Source of the DNA: Armatimonadota bacterium
GTDB lineage: Bacteria; Armatimonadota; Chthonomonadetes; Chthonomonadales; CAJBBX01
Assembly (NCBI GenBank): GCA_026392115.1
Contig: JAPLCQ010000062.1
Location: 1 to 64,000, forward strand
Direction: 5' to 3'
DNA: 64,000 bases
Shown piece by piece: positions 3,448 through 12,735 of the stretch (its first letter is position 1; each line of letters starts with the position of its first letter). The notes under the pieces are model-generated. The model saw nothing but the letters and a program-made list of their open reading frames with translations. It was not told the DNA's origin and did not search any database. The translations under genes were made by a program, and so were the position numbers.

Positions 3448-6576
<3,129 letters not shown>

Positions 6577-6681: not shown

Positions 6682-6903
6682 GCCTGTTGAGGTTCGTGGG
6701 ATTGCTGACCGTCTCCACGGGCGGATGGTGCGTTTGCGGCATGGGGCGACGAAGCTCCGACGGGGTGCGCGGCTACTTAGGATACGCCACTCGGTCGGGT
6801 CGAGGTCCAACCTGCGGCTCACTCTCCCTCCGTTGCGTGGATGCGGCAGTCGCCGCGAACCATCACGATCGTTCGCACCAGTGTGTGCGAGAGGAGGAAC
6901 GAG
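6682..6903 (+). other. Long 5' leader of the SLH porin mRNA
   Basis: From the predicted promoter to the porin ATG there are roughly 215 untranslated bases. No convincing conserved riboswitch core, leader peptide or attenuator was recognised. The leader ends with a strong ribosome site (GAGGAGG, about 6892-6898). Long leaders on outer-membrane protein messages often carry stability or small-RNA control. Confidence 0.4.
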
Positions 6904-8865
6904 ATGAGGAAGGCACTTACCATCCTCGGCGCTTCCGTGGCCCTCTCCCTGGTGACCTCGGCCTTCGCGCAGTTGCCGCCGGACTCCTTCAAGGATGTCC
7001 CGAGCGAGCACTGGGCGTACCAGGCTGTGGATGCTCTTCGCGCGAAGGGCGTCCTCGTGGGTTACCCGGATGGGCTGTTGCGCGGCAAGCGCACCCTGAC
7101 CCGCTACGAGTTCGCCGTTGCCCTGAAGCGCGCCCTGGACCAGGTCCAGACGCTCAAGGGTGACAAGGGCGACACCGGCGCTCCCGGCGCCACCGGCGCC
7201 GCCGGCGCACCGGGCGAGGCCGGCCCCGCCGGTCCCAAGGGCGACTCGGGCATGGCTCCCGAGGAAGTCGCTGCCCTGAAGAAGCTGGCCGACGAGTTCA
7301 AGGCCGAGCTGTCGAACCTGGGCGTCAACGTGAACGCGCTGAACGCCAAGCTCGACAAGATCGCAAAGGACCTCGCGGCCCTCAAGACCGAAGTCGCCGG
7401 CATGCCGAAGATCACCGGCGGCATGTTCGTCGGCGTCCGCGCCGATCGCGCCAACGGCCCGTACGTTGACCGCGACGGCACCGCTCTCACCAACACCGAT
7501 GTCGCCACCGGCGGCGGCGTTTGGAAGAGCCTTGTCAACACCCCCGCGGTGCTGCATCAGTTCAACCTGAACATCACCAAGAGCTGGGGCGACGCTGGTT
7601 CCGTCAGCGCGACCATCGTCAACTCGAACTACAAGGGCTATGTGAACAACTGGACCGGCATCGCGACCGGCGCCCCCGTCAACACCAGCCCCGTGCAGGA
7701 CACCTACCTGGACCAGTTGGTCCTCTCCGCCCCGTTTGCGGGCATCGGCCAGAACGGCAACCTCACGGTTGGCCGCTTCGGCTTCGCGCTGACCCCGCTG
7801 ACCCTTTCCAAGGTCTCCGTGGACAGCTACCTGACCAACCCGCTGGTTGACGACGGCCAGCTTCGGCTGGACGGCTTCAACCTCAAGACCGGTATGGGCA
7901 GCGTCGGCGTCAACTTCTTCGCCGGCCAGACCAGCCGCGCCACCGGCACCGACGGCATGCCGTACGCCGTTCCCGCCGCCGGCGCTTCCACCGCGGCCAT
8001 CTTCGATGCGGACGGCGGCAAGCTCGCCAAGCCGCTGGCGATGGTGTATGTCGGCCAGACGATCGTCGACCAGGTCGGCGGCCTCGAGGCCAAGCTGCCG
8101 CTGAACGTTGCAGGCGGCGCTCATGTCGGCGTCCGCGCCACCCTGGCGACGGGCACCGGCGGCGAGGGCTTCACCAACGTCCAGACCATCGGCGCCGACG
8201 CCGGCGTGAAGCTGAGCGACAGCGTCAACTTCACCGGCGAGTGGGCCAAGACCAACACGGGTACCGGCCGCTTGGGCTCCGTGAACGTGCATGAGAACAA
8301 TGCCTTCAACGGCAACCTCACGCTCGGCACCGTCCTCGGCGTCGGCCTGTCCGCGGGCTACAAGTACATCGATCCCCTGTTCTACGCTCCCGGCTACTGG
8401 GGCAAGATCGGTAACTGGTACAACCCGACCAACGTTCAGGGCCCGTCCGTCCGCCTGAACAAGGACCTCACCTCCAAGATGGGCCTGACCCTGGGTGGCG
8501 ACTATGTCTTCGCCGCTCGCGATCGCGCCGCCACCTACAGCCTCGGCAAGGACGACGAGATTTATCGCGCCCTGGCCGGCCTGAAGTGGGATGTGAGCGA
8601 GAGCCTGACCGCCTCCGTCGACTGGGAAGGCGTCTACTGGAAGCTCCAGGGTGCGCACGGCACTGTCGGCACCGCCACCACCAAGGTTCATCCGACCGAG
8701 CAGTACGTCACCTTCGGCGCCGGCTACAAGTGGAACCAGGCCGCGAACATCAAGCTGGGCTACCAGCTGGGTTCGTTCGACGGCCATGGCTTCCTCACCG
8801 CCGGCGGCGGCCTGGGCGGCTACAACTACAACGCGTTCACCTCGACCGTGAACGTCAAGTTCTAG
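6904..8865 (+). CDS. SLH-domain outer-membrane porin with collagen-like linker
   Basis: This 653-residue envelope protein has four visible parts. Residues 1-22 are a signal peptide (ends SAFA). Residues 27-80 form one S-layer homology domain (FKDVPSEHWAYQAV, LVGYPDG, LTRYEFA). Residues 86-116 are ten uninterrupted Gly-X-Y triplets, a collagen-like segment. Residues 118-166 are a charged heptad-like coiled coil. The rest (about 172-653) is a Gly/aromatic-rich beta-barrel ending in VNVKF with a C-terminal Phe, as expected for BAM-inserted porins. The plan resembles OmpM or Slp porins that tether the outer membrane to peptidoglycan polymers in diderms lacking Pal-type tethers. The start at 6904 is chosen over the upstream in-frame ATG at 6841 because of the ribosome site and leader. 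A strong terminator follows, so the gene is probably monocistronic. Confidence 0.85.
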   Translation: MRKALTILGASVALSLVTSAFAQLPPDSFKDVPSEHWAYQAVDALRAKGVLVGYPDGLLRGKRTLTRYEFAVALKRALDQVQTLKGDKGDTGAPGATGAAGAPGEAGPAGPKGDSGMAPEEVAALKKLADEFKAELSNLGVNVNALNAKLDKIAKDLAALKTEVAGMPKITGGMFVGVRADRANGPYVDRDGTALTNTDVATGGGVWKSLVNTPAVLHQFNLNITKSWGDAGSVSATIVNSNYKGYVNNWTGIATGAPVNTSPVQDTYLDQLVLSAPFAGIGQNGNLTVGRFGFALTPLTLSKVSVDSYLTNPLVDDGQLRLDGFNLKTGMGSVGVNFFAGQTSRATGTDGMPYAVPAAGASTAAIFDADGGKLAKPLAMVYVGQTIVDQVGGLEAKLPLNVAGGAHVGVRATLATGTGGEGFTNVQTIGADAGVKLSDSVNFTGEWAKTNTGTGRLGSVNVHENNAFNGNLTLGTVLGVGLSAGYKYIDPLFYAPGYWGKIGNWYNPTNVQGPSVRLNKDLTSKMGLTLGGDYVFAARDRAATYSLGKDDEIYRALAGLKWDVSESLTASVDWEGVYWKLQGAHGTVGTATTKVHPTEQYVTFGAGYKWNQAANIKLGYQLGSFDGHGFLTAGGGLGGYNYNAFTSTVNVKF

Positions 8866-9015: not shown

Positions 9016-12000
9016 ATGATTCAGTCAGCCGTTGTCGCGCTGGCATTTCTTGCGCCGTGGCTCGGCCACGGTGACAGGTTCCCAGCCATGGGCTTGCCCG
9101 ACGGGCCGTCGGCGGCGCCGCCGCCCAGGGCAACCAATCCGTACAAGGCCATGCAGTGGCGGCGTCTCACCTGGCAGGACGAGAACGGCCGCGTCGAGCC
9201 CGGCGTGCTGAAGAAGGCCCTGGACCAGCGCCGGGCGAGCATTGGTCAGAACGTCCACATGCTCTCGGCCGTGCCCGGAATGTTCTGGACCGAGCGCGGT
9301 CCGCAGAACGTGGCCGGCCGCTCCCGATCGGTCCTCATACACCCGTCGCAGACCAACAAGCTCTGGGTGGGTTCCGTCAGCGGCGGCATCTGGTCCAGCG
9401 TCGACACCGGCGCCACGTGGACCAAGGCGAACGACTGGATCAGCACGTTGGCGATCGGCTGCATGGCGATCGATCCCACCAACCCCAACATCCTCTACGC
9501 GGGCACCGGCGAGGGCCAGTTCAACATCGACGCCATCGGCGGCGGCGGCATCCTCAAGTCCACCGACGGCGGCGCGACATGGGCGATCCTCTCCTCCACG
9601 TCATCCTGGACCGACTGCGTCTGCAGCATCTCCATCTCGCCCACCGACCACAACGTGCTCCTCATCGGCATGCGTTACGGCGGCATCTTCCGCTCCAGCG
9701 ACGGCGGAACCACGTGGACCAACCCGCAGTGGACCCAAGGCTCCTTCTGCGTGGCGTTCCACCCGACCGACGGCGCGAAGGCGGTGGCCTCGGTCATCGA
9801 CTACGATTGGTCGGCCAACGACTGGTTCCACCGGGCCTACTACAGCACCGATGCGGGTCTCACCTGGAAGAGCGCCACGGGGCTTGACCAGATCTGGGGC
9901 TTCGGCAGCCGGATCACGTTGGCCTATGCGCCCAGCAGTCCGACCACCGTATATGCCTCCTGCGCCGCCGACGGCGGGCTGATTTGGAAATCCACCAACG
10001 GCGGCCAGAGCTACACGCAGGTCACCACATCGGGGACCAGCGGCGCCAACTGGTACGCCAACCCGCTCTGGGTTGACCCGACCAACGCCAACCACCTGCT
10101 CACGGGCGGCGTCGACATCTACCGCAGCACCAACGGAGGCGTCACGCTGACGCAGGCTACCGGCGGCTACATGCTCACCGAGCAGCCCCACTCCGATGTC
10201 CACACCATCGTCAGCGCGCCCGGCTTCAACGGCTCCACGGTTAAGCGCGTCTACGCCTGCACCGACGGCAGCCTCTACAGCGCGCCGGACATCTACGCAG
10301 CCACGACCTCGACCGGGTGGTCGCGGCTCGACGTGGGCTGCCGGACCACCCAGTTCTACGGCGCTGCCGGCAACGGCACGACCGGGAAGATCGTGGGCGG
10401 CCTGCAGGACAACGGCACGCTGATGCTGAACCCCGCCGACAACGTGGCCACCCTCACCTTCGGCGGCGACGGCGGCTTCTGCGCGGTGGACCCGACCGAC
10501 TCCAACTACACCTACGGCGAGTACATCGCCCTGATGATGCACCGCTCCACCAACGGCGGCGCCTCGGCCTCGTGGATCTACAGCGGCATATCGGACGCCG
10601 GCGGCTCTGCCAACTTCATCGCGCCGTTCATCCTGGACCCCAACAACGTCAACCGCCTCCTCGCCGGCGGCGCCAGCCTCTGGCGCAGCGACAACGCCAA
10701 GGCCGCCACCCCCGCCTGGAGCGCCATTCGATCGGCGGGGTCCGATGTGATCAGCGCCATCGCCGTGGCGCCGGGCAACTCCAGCATCGTCTGGGTCGGC
10801 CAGAACGACGGCGTGATCCAGAAGACGACCAACGGCACCGTGGCGTCGCCCACCTGGGTGGACATCGACAACAACGGCGCCACCAACCCGCTGCCCAACC
10901 GCTACGTCACCCGCATCGTCGTGGACCCCGCCAACAGCCAGGTGGTCTACGCCTGCTTCGGCGGCTTCGCCCCGGACAATATCTACGTCACGCGCAACGG
11001 CGGCACGACCTGGACCGTCTGCACCGGGACCGGTGCGGGCAAGCTGCCCGAGTGCCCGGTGCGCGGCCTGGCGCGGGACCCGCGGAACGCGTCGATCCTC
11101 TATGCCGGCACCGAGGTGGGCGTCTTCGCCACCTCCGACGGCGGCGCCAACTGGACCACCAACGAGGCCGGCCCGGCAGCCGTCTCCGTCGATGAGCTCA
11201 CCTTCATGAGCAACTCGCTGACGCTGCTGGCGGCCACCCACGGCCGCGGCCTCTGGACCGCCGACCTCTCCGTGCCGGCGGTGGCGTCGGTGGCGGTGGC
11301 GCCAAACACGCTGGCGGGCGGCGCATCGGCCGTCGGCACGGTGACCCTGAACCGGGCCGCGCCGTTCGGCGGCTGCGTCGTGACCCTGAGCAGCAACAGC
11401 GCCAAGGCGACCGTGCCGGCCTCCGTAACGGTACTCGCCGGGCAGACCCAGGCCACCTTCCCGGTGACCACGACCTCCGTGGCCGCGCAGGTGGTCGCCA
11501 CGCTGACGGCCACGCTGGGCGGTTCGTCGCAGCAGTGTACGCTGACCATCAACGTGCTGGGCATACCCACCACGTTGACCGTGGCGCCGGCCTCCGGGGC
11601 GGCCGGAGGCACCGTGAACATCTCGGCCGCGCTCTTCCGCACCGAGACATCGGCGGCCATCGCCGGGGCAACGGTGGCCTTCACCGTGGCCGGCACGGCC
11701 GCGGGATCGGCCCCGACCAACGCCTCCGGCGGGGTGAGCCTGCCCTACATCATCCCCGAAGGCGCCGGGCCGGGCAGCAGGACCATCGCCGCCAACTATG
11801 CGGGCGACGCCGTCTACCAGGCCGCGAACGGATCGGCCGCGCTCACGGTCAATAAGGCCAACACCAGCGTCTACCTGCCCGACCGGAGCCAGACCTACAC
11901 CGAGAGCATCCGCCTGAAGGCCTACTGGCGCCGCCTGACCGACAACGCGGGCAAGGCGGGCCTGACCATCACCTTCAAGGTCGCCGGCACCAGCGTGGGC

Positions 12001-12735
12001 ACGGGCGCCACCGACGCCACGGGGTACGCCTACCTCGACTGGACGGTCACGGCCGGGGCCGCCTCGCGCGCGCTGACGGGCGAGTTCGCCGGGGATACCA
12101 TGTACAACGGGTCCTCCGGCAGCGCCGTCCTAACGTCGACCACCGTGGCCACCAAGGTCTACGTGGTCGACCGGACCAACGTGAAGATCAAGACCTACAC
12201 GGTCCTGAAGGCGTACCTCTACACCACGGCCAACGTCATCCTGCCCGGCAAGACCCTCACGATGACGGTCGACGGCACGTCGCTGGGCTCGCAGGCCACC
12301 AACTCCAGCGGCTACATCTCGTTCGGCTATACGGTTCCCGAGGGGACGGGCGCGGGCAACCGCGTGGTCGGCTCGAGCTGGGCTGGCAACGCGGGCTACC
12401 CGGCCTCGTCCAACACCGGCAAGCTGGGCGTGGTTCAGGGCAACCTTTACATATGGCCCTACGTTCGCTCCGGCAAGCGGGGCACGGTCCACCCGCTGAA
12501 GGCCTACGTGCGAAGCCTGCCGGACTACGTGATCCAGCCCGGCAAATCGATCACGTTCAAGGTGGGCGGCTCCACCATCGGCTCGGCCAACGTAGCGGCC
12601 GACGGCTGGGCCACGGTCAACTGGTCCATCCCGGCGGGCGAGGCCACCGGCGCCCACACAGCCAACGCCGCCTTCGCAGGCGACGCGTGGTACGCGGCCA
12701 CATCGGCCAACACGACCTTCAACGTGGTGCCGTAG
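9016..12735 (+). CDS. Secreted BNR/Asp-box beta-propeller protein with Ig-like repeats
   Basis: This 1239-residue protein is probably exported, with a hydrophobic N-terminus after the start. Residues of about 90-750 hold many Asp-box motifs (STDGGATW, SSDGGTTW, TSDGGANW and variants), the signature of sortilin/VPS10 or sialidase-like propellers. No catalytic sialidase residues were recognised. The C-terminal part (about 755-1239) is a string of Ig-like modules. The last three are clearly repeats of one another (VYLPDR/VYVVDR/LYIWPY openings, LKAY, TITFKVAGTSVG-like, then AGDA-Y near the end). A GGAGG ribosome site precedes the ATG. It probably acts in adhesion or polymer binding at the cell surface. 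No SLH or sorting domain is seen. A TATCAT at 8945-8950 may be the -10 element. Confidence 0.8.
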   Translation: MIQSAVVALAFLAPWLGHGDRFPAMGLPDGPSAAPPPRATNPYKAMQWRRLTWQDENGRVEPGVLKKALDQRRASIGQNVHMLSAVPGMFWTERGPQNVAGRSRSVLIHPSQTNKLWVGSVSGGIWSSVDTGATWTKANDWISTLAIGCMAIDPTNPNILYAGTGEGQFNIDAIGGGGILKSTDGGATWAILSSTSSWTDCVCSISISPTDHNVLLIGMRYGGIFRSSDGGTTWTNPQWTQGSFCVAFHPTDGAKAVASVIDYDWSANDWFHRAYYSTDAGLTWKSATGLDQIWGFGSRITLAYAPSSPTTVYASCAADGGLIWKSTNGGQSYTQVTTSGTSGANWYANPLWVDPTNANHLLTGGVDIYRSTNGGVTLTQATGGYMLTEQPHSDVHTIVSAPGFNGSTVKRVYACTDGSLYSAPDIYAATTSTGWSRLDVGCRTTQFYGAAGNGTTGKIVGGLQDNGTLMLNPADNVATLTFGGDGGFCAVDPTDSNYTYGEYIALMMHRSTNGGASASWIYSGISDAGGSANFIAPFILDPNNVNRLLAGGASLWRSDNAKAATPAWSAIRSAGSDVISAIAVAPGNSSIVWVGQNDGVIQKTTNGTVASPTWVDIDNNGATNPLPNRYVTRIVVDPANSQVVYACFGGFAPDNIYVTRNGGTTWTVCTGTGAGKLPECPVRGLARDPRNASILYAGTEVGVFATSDGGANWTTNEAGPAAVSVDELTFMSNSLTLLAATHGRGLWTADLSVPAVASVAVAPNTLAGGASAVGTVTLNRAAPFGGCVVTLSSNSAKATVPASVTVLAGQTQATFPVTTTSVAAQVVATLTATLGGSSQQCTLTINVLGIPTTLTVAPASGAAGGTVNISAALFRTETSAAIAGATVAFTVAGTAAGSAPTNASGGVSLPYIIPEGAGPGSRTIAANYAGDAVYQAANGSAALTVNKANTSVYLPDRSQTYTESIRLKAYWRRLTDNAGKAGLTITFKVAGTSVGTGATDATGYAYLDWTVTAGAASRALTGEFAGDTMYNGSSGSAVLTSTTVATKVYVVDRTNVKIKTYTVLKAYLYTTANVILPGKTLTMTVDGTSLGSQATNSSGYISFGYTVPEGTGAGNRVVGSSWAGNAGYPASSNTGKLGVVQGNLYIWPYVRSGKRGTVHPLKAYVRSLPDYVIQPGKSITFKVGGSTIGSANVAADGWATVNWSIPAGEATGAHTANAAFAGDAWYAATSANTTFNVVP

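Follow-up and report, generated by a model that had tools for sequence, protein, structure and literature searches.

Many SLH-porins across the Armatimonadota carry a collagen-like Gly-X-Y segment between the SLH domain and the coiled coil. The segment is conserved, its glycines keep their register, and its composition is of the collagen type. The example described here is P0001, a 653-amino-acid protein recognized from its open reading frame (ORF) translation, Pfam matches, and homology and encoded on the plus strand at positions 6904 to 8865 of the window, which is the whole 64,000-nucleotide stretch of DNA that was analyzed. We consider it likely that P0001 is both a tether of the OmpM/SlpA type and a porin, in which a collagen triple helix acts as a stiff, length-adjustable spacer between the outer membrane and the wall.

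The start of P0001 at 6904 is supported by a ribosome-binding-like stretch, GAGAGGAGGAA, read directly from the plus strand just upstream of the ATG (6890 to 6900), and by a signal peptide recognized by eye (residues 1 to 22, MRKALTILGASVALSLVTSAFA/Q; 6904 to 6969). The SLH domain (residues 28 to 71; 6985 to 7116; PF00395, E value of 2e-9) is followed by the Gly-X-Y segment (residues 86 to 118; 7159 to 7257), identified from the translation, the Pfam Collagen model, and shuffles, and by a conserved helical core (residues 119 to 166; 7258 to 7401), identified from heptad spacing and the phylum alignment. The remainder, assigned from sequence and profile evidence, is a C-terminal outer-membrane barrel-like region (residues 167 to 653; 7402 to 8862) that ends in ...NVKF and thus has Phe as its last residue. 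Leu, Ile, and Val are heptad spaced in the helix after the Gly-X-Y segment, with a hydrophobic spacing of 4-3-4-3-4-3 over residues 146 to 167, and this predicted coiled-coil core is common to the 157 proteins of the phylum that we read. The SLH match, the heptad core, and the barrel-type features at the C terminus agree with the view of the first-pass annotation that the protein joins an SLH domain, a coiled coil, and a predicted barrel, as tethers of the OmpM/SlpA type do. The upstream neighbor (3463 to 6576) encodes a family-2 beta-galactosidase and the downstream neighbor (9016 to 12735) encodes a protein with Sortilin/Vps10 repeats and bacterial Ig-like domains; an envelope operon is not obvious in this neighborhood.

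The ten uninterrupted triplets that the same annotation had placed between the SLH domain and the coiled coil are present in the translation as residues 86 to 115 (7159 to 7248), or eleven to residue 118 if the final GMA is counted: GDK GDT GAP GAT GAA GAP GEA GPA GPK GDS GMA. The Pfam Collagen model (PF01391) matches residues 86 to 116 with an E value of 2e-4; the scores for P0001, 21.4 bits and, in the genome search, 26.1 bits, are both under the Pfam cutoff of 27.2 bits, which SLH-porins with longer rods in other genomes exceed. P0001 is the only match to this model in the 5.7-Mb assembly. The longest run obtained was 8 triplets, both when the spacer residues were shuffled 200,000 times and when the whole protein was shuffled 20,000 times; the segment is not a product of chance. 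A frame or assembly artifact was ruled out because the run lies in one open frame and its register is kept across dozens of independent assemblies.

Homologs of P0001 occur in 283 of the 291 genomes of the phylum. The order to which the window genome belongs comprises 31 genomes, of which 28 were read (G030, G038, and G056 were left out), and 34 of their 35 distinct SLH-core proteins have a run of at least 6 triplets in the same place; the single protein without a run is a separate paralog (L002). G038 has a partial copy that lacks the N terminus (L038), with a Collagen match reported, and G056, which is 64% complete, gave no match. G030, a 94% complete genome from the family of the window genome, has a weak match to P0001 (E value of 2.7e-6) and no Collagen match, a result that reflects either loss or an assembly gap.

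Across the phylum, we read 157 distinct SLH-core proteins from 129 genomes and 32 families. The run was present in 96 of the 157 (78 genomes and 19 of the 32 families), a proportion that comes from a set partly selected for the run, because 40 regions and 30 loci were contributed by the Collagen search. In these 96 carriers, the run always lies between the SLH domain and the coiled coil and consists of 7 to 54 triplets, which form a single uninterrupted run in 88. Homology searches with P0001 alone (L001 to L101) recovered the run in 39 of 99 distinct proteins. An SLH-only profile, which is blind to the Gly-X-Y segment, recovered it in 28 of the 30 best loci from another class (46 genomes); the two exceptions are a locus truncated at a contig end and a locus with five triplets. 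The 13 sampled families without the run have another linker or a coiled coil in its place. The search for Gly-X-Y SLH proteins proposed in the first-pass annotation found carriers of very different triplet number in more than half of the families sampled, and the segment, far from being absent in all relatives, is shared by nearly every SLH-core protein read from the order.

The longest rods, with 44 to 54 triplets and one short break (20+33, 19+35, and 22+22), were found in family f41 (L125, L128, and L143) and are estimated at about 38 to 46 nm; the other SLH proteins examined from this family are not porins. On a tree of the SLH domain and core (160 rows and 104 columns), 9 state changes were counted versus 50.6 in shuffles, and supported branches force only 1 of them, which is compatible with one origin of the run or with several. 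Eight ORFs without a core match were left out of the 157-protein set, among them L135 (a Gly-X-Y carrier split over two frames), L181 (cut by a contig end), and L009 (a divergent paralog without Gly-X-Y), and four proteins without a recognized SLH-end motif were left out of one comparison.

The Collagen family search alone matched 131 of 291 genomes, a figure that we rejected as a measure of prevalence because many of the matches are other proteins or simple-repeat frames. Another collagen-like kind of protein was seen in several families (L110, L115, L121, and L126), with a membrane segment bearing a conserved GYF-W-P-like motif and then a Gly-X-Y tail; three of these are ORFs of 143 to 169 amino acids. 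In family f43, two ORFs of more than 700 amino acids (L112 and L124) have a membrane segment, a helical stretch ending in QALIG, and 19 to 22 Gly-X-Y triplets, and no SLH domain was found in either. SLH-porin genes themselves can be tandem or clustered (L028, L035, L051, L052, L063, L082, and L169), with as many as three consecutive copies (L082).

Pooled over 1,324 triplets from the 96 carriers, a sample in which counts are not independent events because relatives share descent, the X and Y positions differ strongly in composition: Pro makes up 54.7% of X versus 16.2% of Y, Lys 2.6% versus 9.1%, and Gln 1.1% versus 12.2%. Phe, Tyr, Trp, and His do not occur at all. Pairs of Lys at Y followed by Gly and Asp or Glu at X are known to stabilize collagen triple helices. 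Lys occupies Y in 120 cases, and such Lys-Gly-Asp/Glu pairs were counted 99 times, about threefold the 29.6 (standard deviation of 4.1) expected from triplet shuffles, none of which reached that number in 1,000 trials. Between the window genome and two genomes of its genus, none of the Gly codons of the run changed residue. In the comparison of the window genome with one genome (G029), a changed residue was found at 8 of 22 X/Y codons versus 5 of 119 codons in the flanking SLH domain and core (Fisher P value of 8e-5; P value of 0.03 for Gly versus X/Y). In an alignment of 30 N termini, eight glycine columns, spaced three apart, show no variation, and length differences are whole triplets. To judge from these sequence patterns, the conserved glycines and collagen-type composition read as a selected triple helix in a putatively trimeric tether of the OmpM/SlpA type.

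The window genome encodes another SLH-porin (L002/L211; G000:C8:26388-28067), and its counterparts in 11 further genomes from the order were also read, which allows stalk lengths to be compared. Proteins of this type have an SLH domain, a long coiled coil without Gly-X-Y, and a Porin_O_P-type barrel; in the window genome, this stalk has about 124 residues. The rise per residue is 0.286 nm in collagen and 0.148 nm in a helix. In 12 same-genome pairs, three of them from one genus, the stalk is estimated at 18.4 to 20.4 nm for the coiled-coil-only type and 18.2 to 19.9 nm for the collagen type, with a mean difference of 0.27 nm (standard deviation of 0.74); these estimates were computed after the fact and assume full extension and a wholly helical coiled-coil stalk. 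If the Gly-X-Y residues are taken as helix instead, the collagen-type stalk reaches only about 14 nm. The match is consistent with both porin types bridging the same gap. The periplasmic spacing proposed in the first-pass annotation gains indirect support as far as a spacer role is concerned, from this match in length and from the fact that what varies is the number of triplets. The segment may also help trimerization, as that annotation proposed, although homologs trimerize without it (PMC10628300 and PMC9388160). The arithmetic indicates that the segment is probably a spacer. Across families, stalk estimates span about 12 to 57 nm. This means either that the gap is not the same in all lineages or that long rods have a role beyond bridging it, and the 44 to 54 triplets of f41 strain a fixed-ruler reading.

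Several indirect features suggest that the C-terminal region is an outer-membrane barrel. The last residue is Phe or Tyr in 96 of 99 complete ORFs, a profile of the barrel region matches the porin 6ene (E value of 5e-4), and Pfam SlpA_C was found in 3 of 27 relatives. The genome has a gene for an Omp85 protein and a pyruvyl-transferase-type gene, the latter not specific to SLH wall binding; a search of it for OmpA-type wall-binding domains was negative. The assembly holds three SLH ORFs; one, L104 (G000:C153:36924-37040), is a small SLH-domain ORF of 238 amino acids without core or barrel. By analogy with its homologs, we infer that P0001 is exported, sits in the outer membrane as a trimer, and binds the wall. 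It would be very surprising if the protein were not an outer-membrane tether at all, with the barrel being something else or the SLH end facing outward as an S-layer. Such a reading could draw on the barrel region of P0001 itself, which matched no Pfam family, and on an AlphaFold2 model, built from an eight-row alignment, with a mean pLDDT of only 34.4; against it stand the C-terminal aromatic residues, the porin and SlpA_C matches, the Omp85 protein, and the match to the porin family NF033921, which is below the cutoff of that family.

Two further readings accept the tether and differ over what the Gly-X-Y segment does. It could be a flexible or polyproline-like linker, rich in Gly and Pro through GC-rich codons and repeat slippage, that forms no triple helix. 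The DNA is indeed GC rich, with short tandem repeats at 7168 to 7244, and the X and Y positions change fast. A linker, however, would need none of the properties that set this segment apart: a glycine register that stays invariant despite the turnover at X and Y, insertions and deletions of whole triplets, strongly different compositions at X and Y, and an excess of Lys-Gly-Asp/Glu pairs over triplet shuffles. We therefore regard a linker as quite improbable, if less so than the absence of a tether. The more serious rival is a real triple helix that serves assembly or stability, by setting chain register, preventing the mixing of paralogous SLH-porins, or conferring resistance to proteases or heat, with length of minor importance. 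The enrichment of Lys-Gly-Asp/Glu pairs, generally known as stabilizers, fits this role, and several genomes encode two or more such porins, which makes a sorting device plausible. Yet assembly or stability leaves the length match in the 12 pairs unexplained, and Gly-X-Y is lacking in relatives from other phyla, namely, three sequences read here and OmpM and SlpA, which are trimers (PMC10628300 and PMC9388160). We think it rather unlikely as the main function.

We favor the spacer reading, under which P0001 would be exported by its signal peptide and three chains would then assemble. The C-terminal barrels would lie in the outer membrane, with the heptad core forming a trimeric coiled coil below them, and the three Gly-X-Y segments would twist together as a short collagen triple helix, about 9 nm long. 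At the far end, the SLH domains would bind peptidoglycan or a polymer attached to it. The collagen rod would thereby replace additional coiled coil as a stiff spacer that can be lengthened or shortened by whole triplets. More tentatively, we speculate that the collagen triple helix of Armatimonadota is an evolvable tether ruler, in which coiled coil and collagen are interchangeable and give the same reach within a cell, while 7 to 54 triplets set the gap by lineage, from about 16 to nearly 60 nm. A collagen rod in the tether of many families would make collagen triple helices in the periplasm load-bearing parts of the envelope in a diderm phylum. Because the parts keep their order although rod length differs about sevenfold, natural length variants would allow a direct test of what sets the distance between membrane and wall. 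The proteins also provide short bacterial collagens lying between natural trimerizing domains, some possibly from thermophiles.

Known proteins share some of these parts. Scl1 and Scl2 (NF038329 and NF038330) likewise have Gly-X-Y repeats of collagen-type makeup; they are surface adhesins, by their family names, whereas the rod of P0001 is short and lies inside a predicted periplasmic stalk. The cyanobacterial iron uptake or SomA-type porin family NF033921 combines, as P0001 is predicted to do, an SLH domain, a helical core, and a porin, and P0001 matches it with an E value of 3e-18 and a score of 65.7 bits, below the NCBI cutoff of 100 bits. Two plasmid-borne members of this family have a spacer of 22 to 23 residues without Gly-X-Y, in contrast to P0001, and Gly-X-Y was found in none of the three plasmid-borne relatives from other phyla that were read among 69 plasmid records matched. 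Deinobacterium chartae, a control genome that matches both the SLH and the Collagen models, may hold such a protein. In the openly accessible, published full-text literature, we found no description of an SLH-porin with a collagen-like segment.

The best solved relatives, for the SLH part only, are OmpM of Veillonella parvula (PDB 8bys and 8bym, with 8bz2 also matched; E values of 1e-14 to 3.5e-12) and SlpA of Deinococcus radiodurans (PDB 7zgx; E value of 1.4e-12). Both have the arrangement predicted for P0001, with an N-terminal SLH domain, a stalk, and a C-terminal barrel, which in OmpM is an outer-membrane barrel, and both are trimers that form without a collagen segment (PMC10628300 and PMC9388160). 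OmpM has a triple coiled coil as its stalk, and the word "collagen" does not appear in the text on it (PMC10628300); SlpA has a coiled coil of about 28 nm, read as a connector or spacer between outer membrane and wall, and the main text does not use the word "collagen" either (PMC9388160). P0001 differs from both in the Gly-X-Y rod between SLH domain and coiled coil. Armatimonadetes are named among the phyla with SlpA-like or OmpM proteins (PMC9388160), and OmpM-type tethers have been proposed as an ancestral outer-membrane attachment (PMC10628300). What the Armatimonadota probably add, in many of their families, is a form of this tether with a collagen-like rod.
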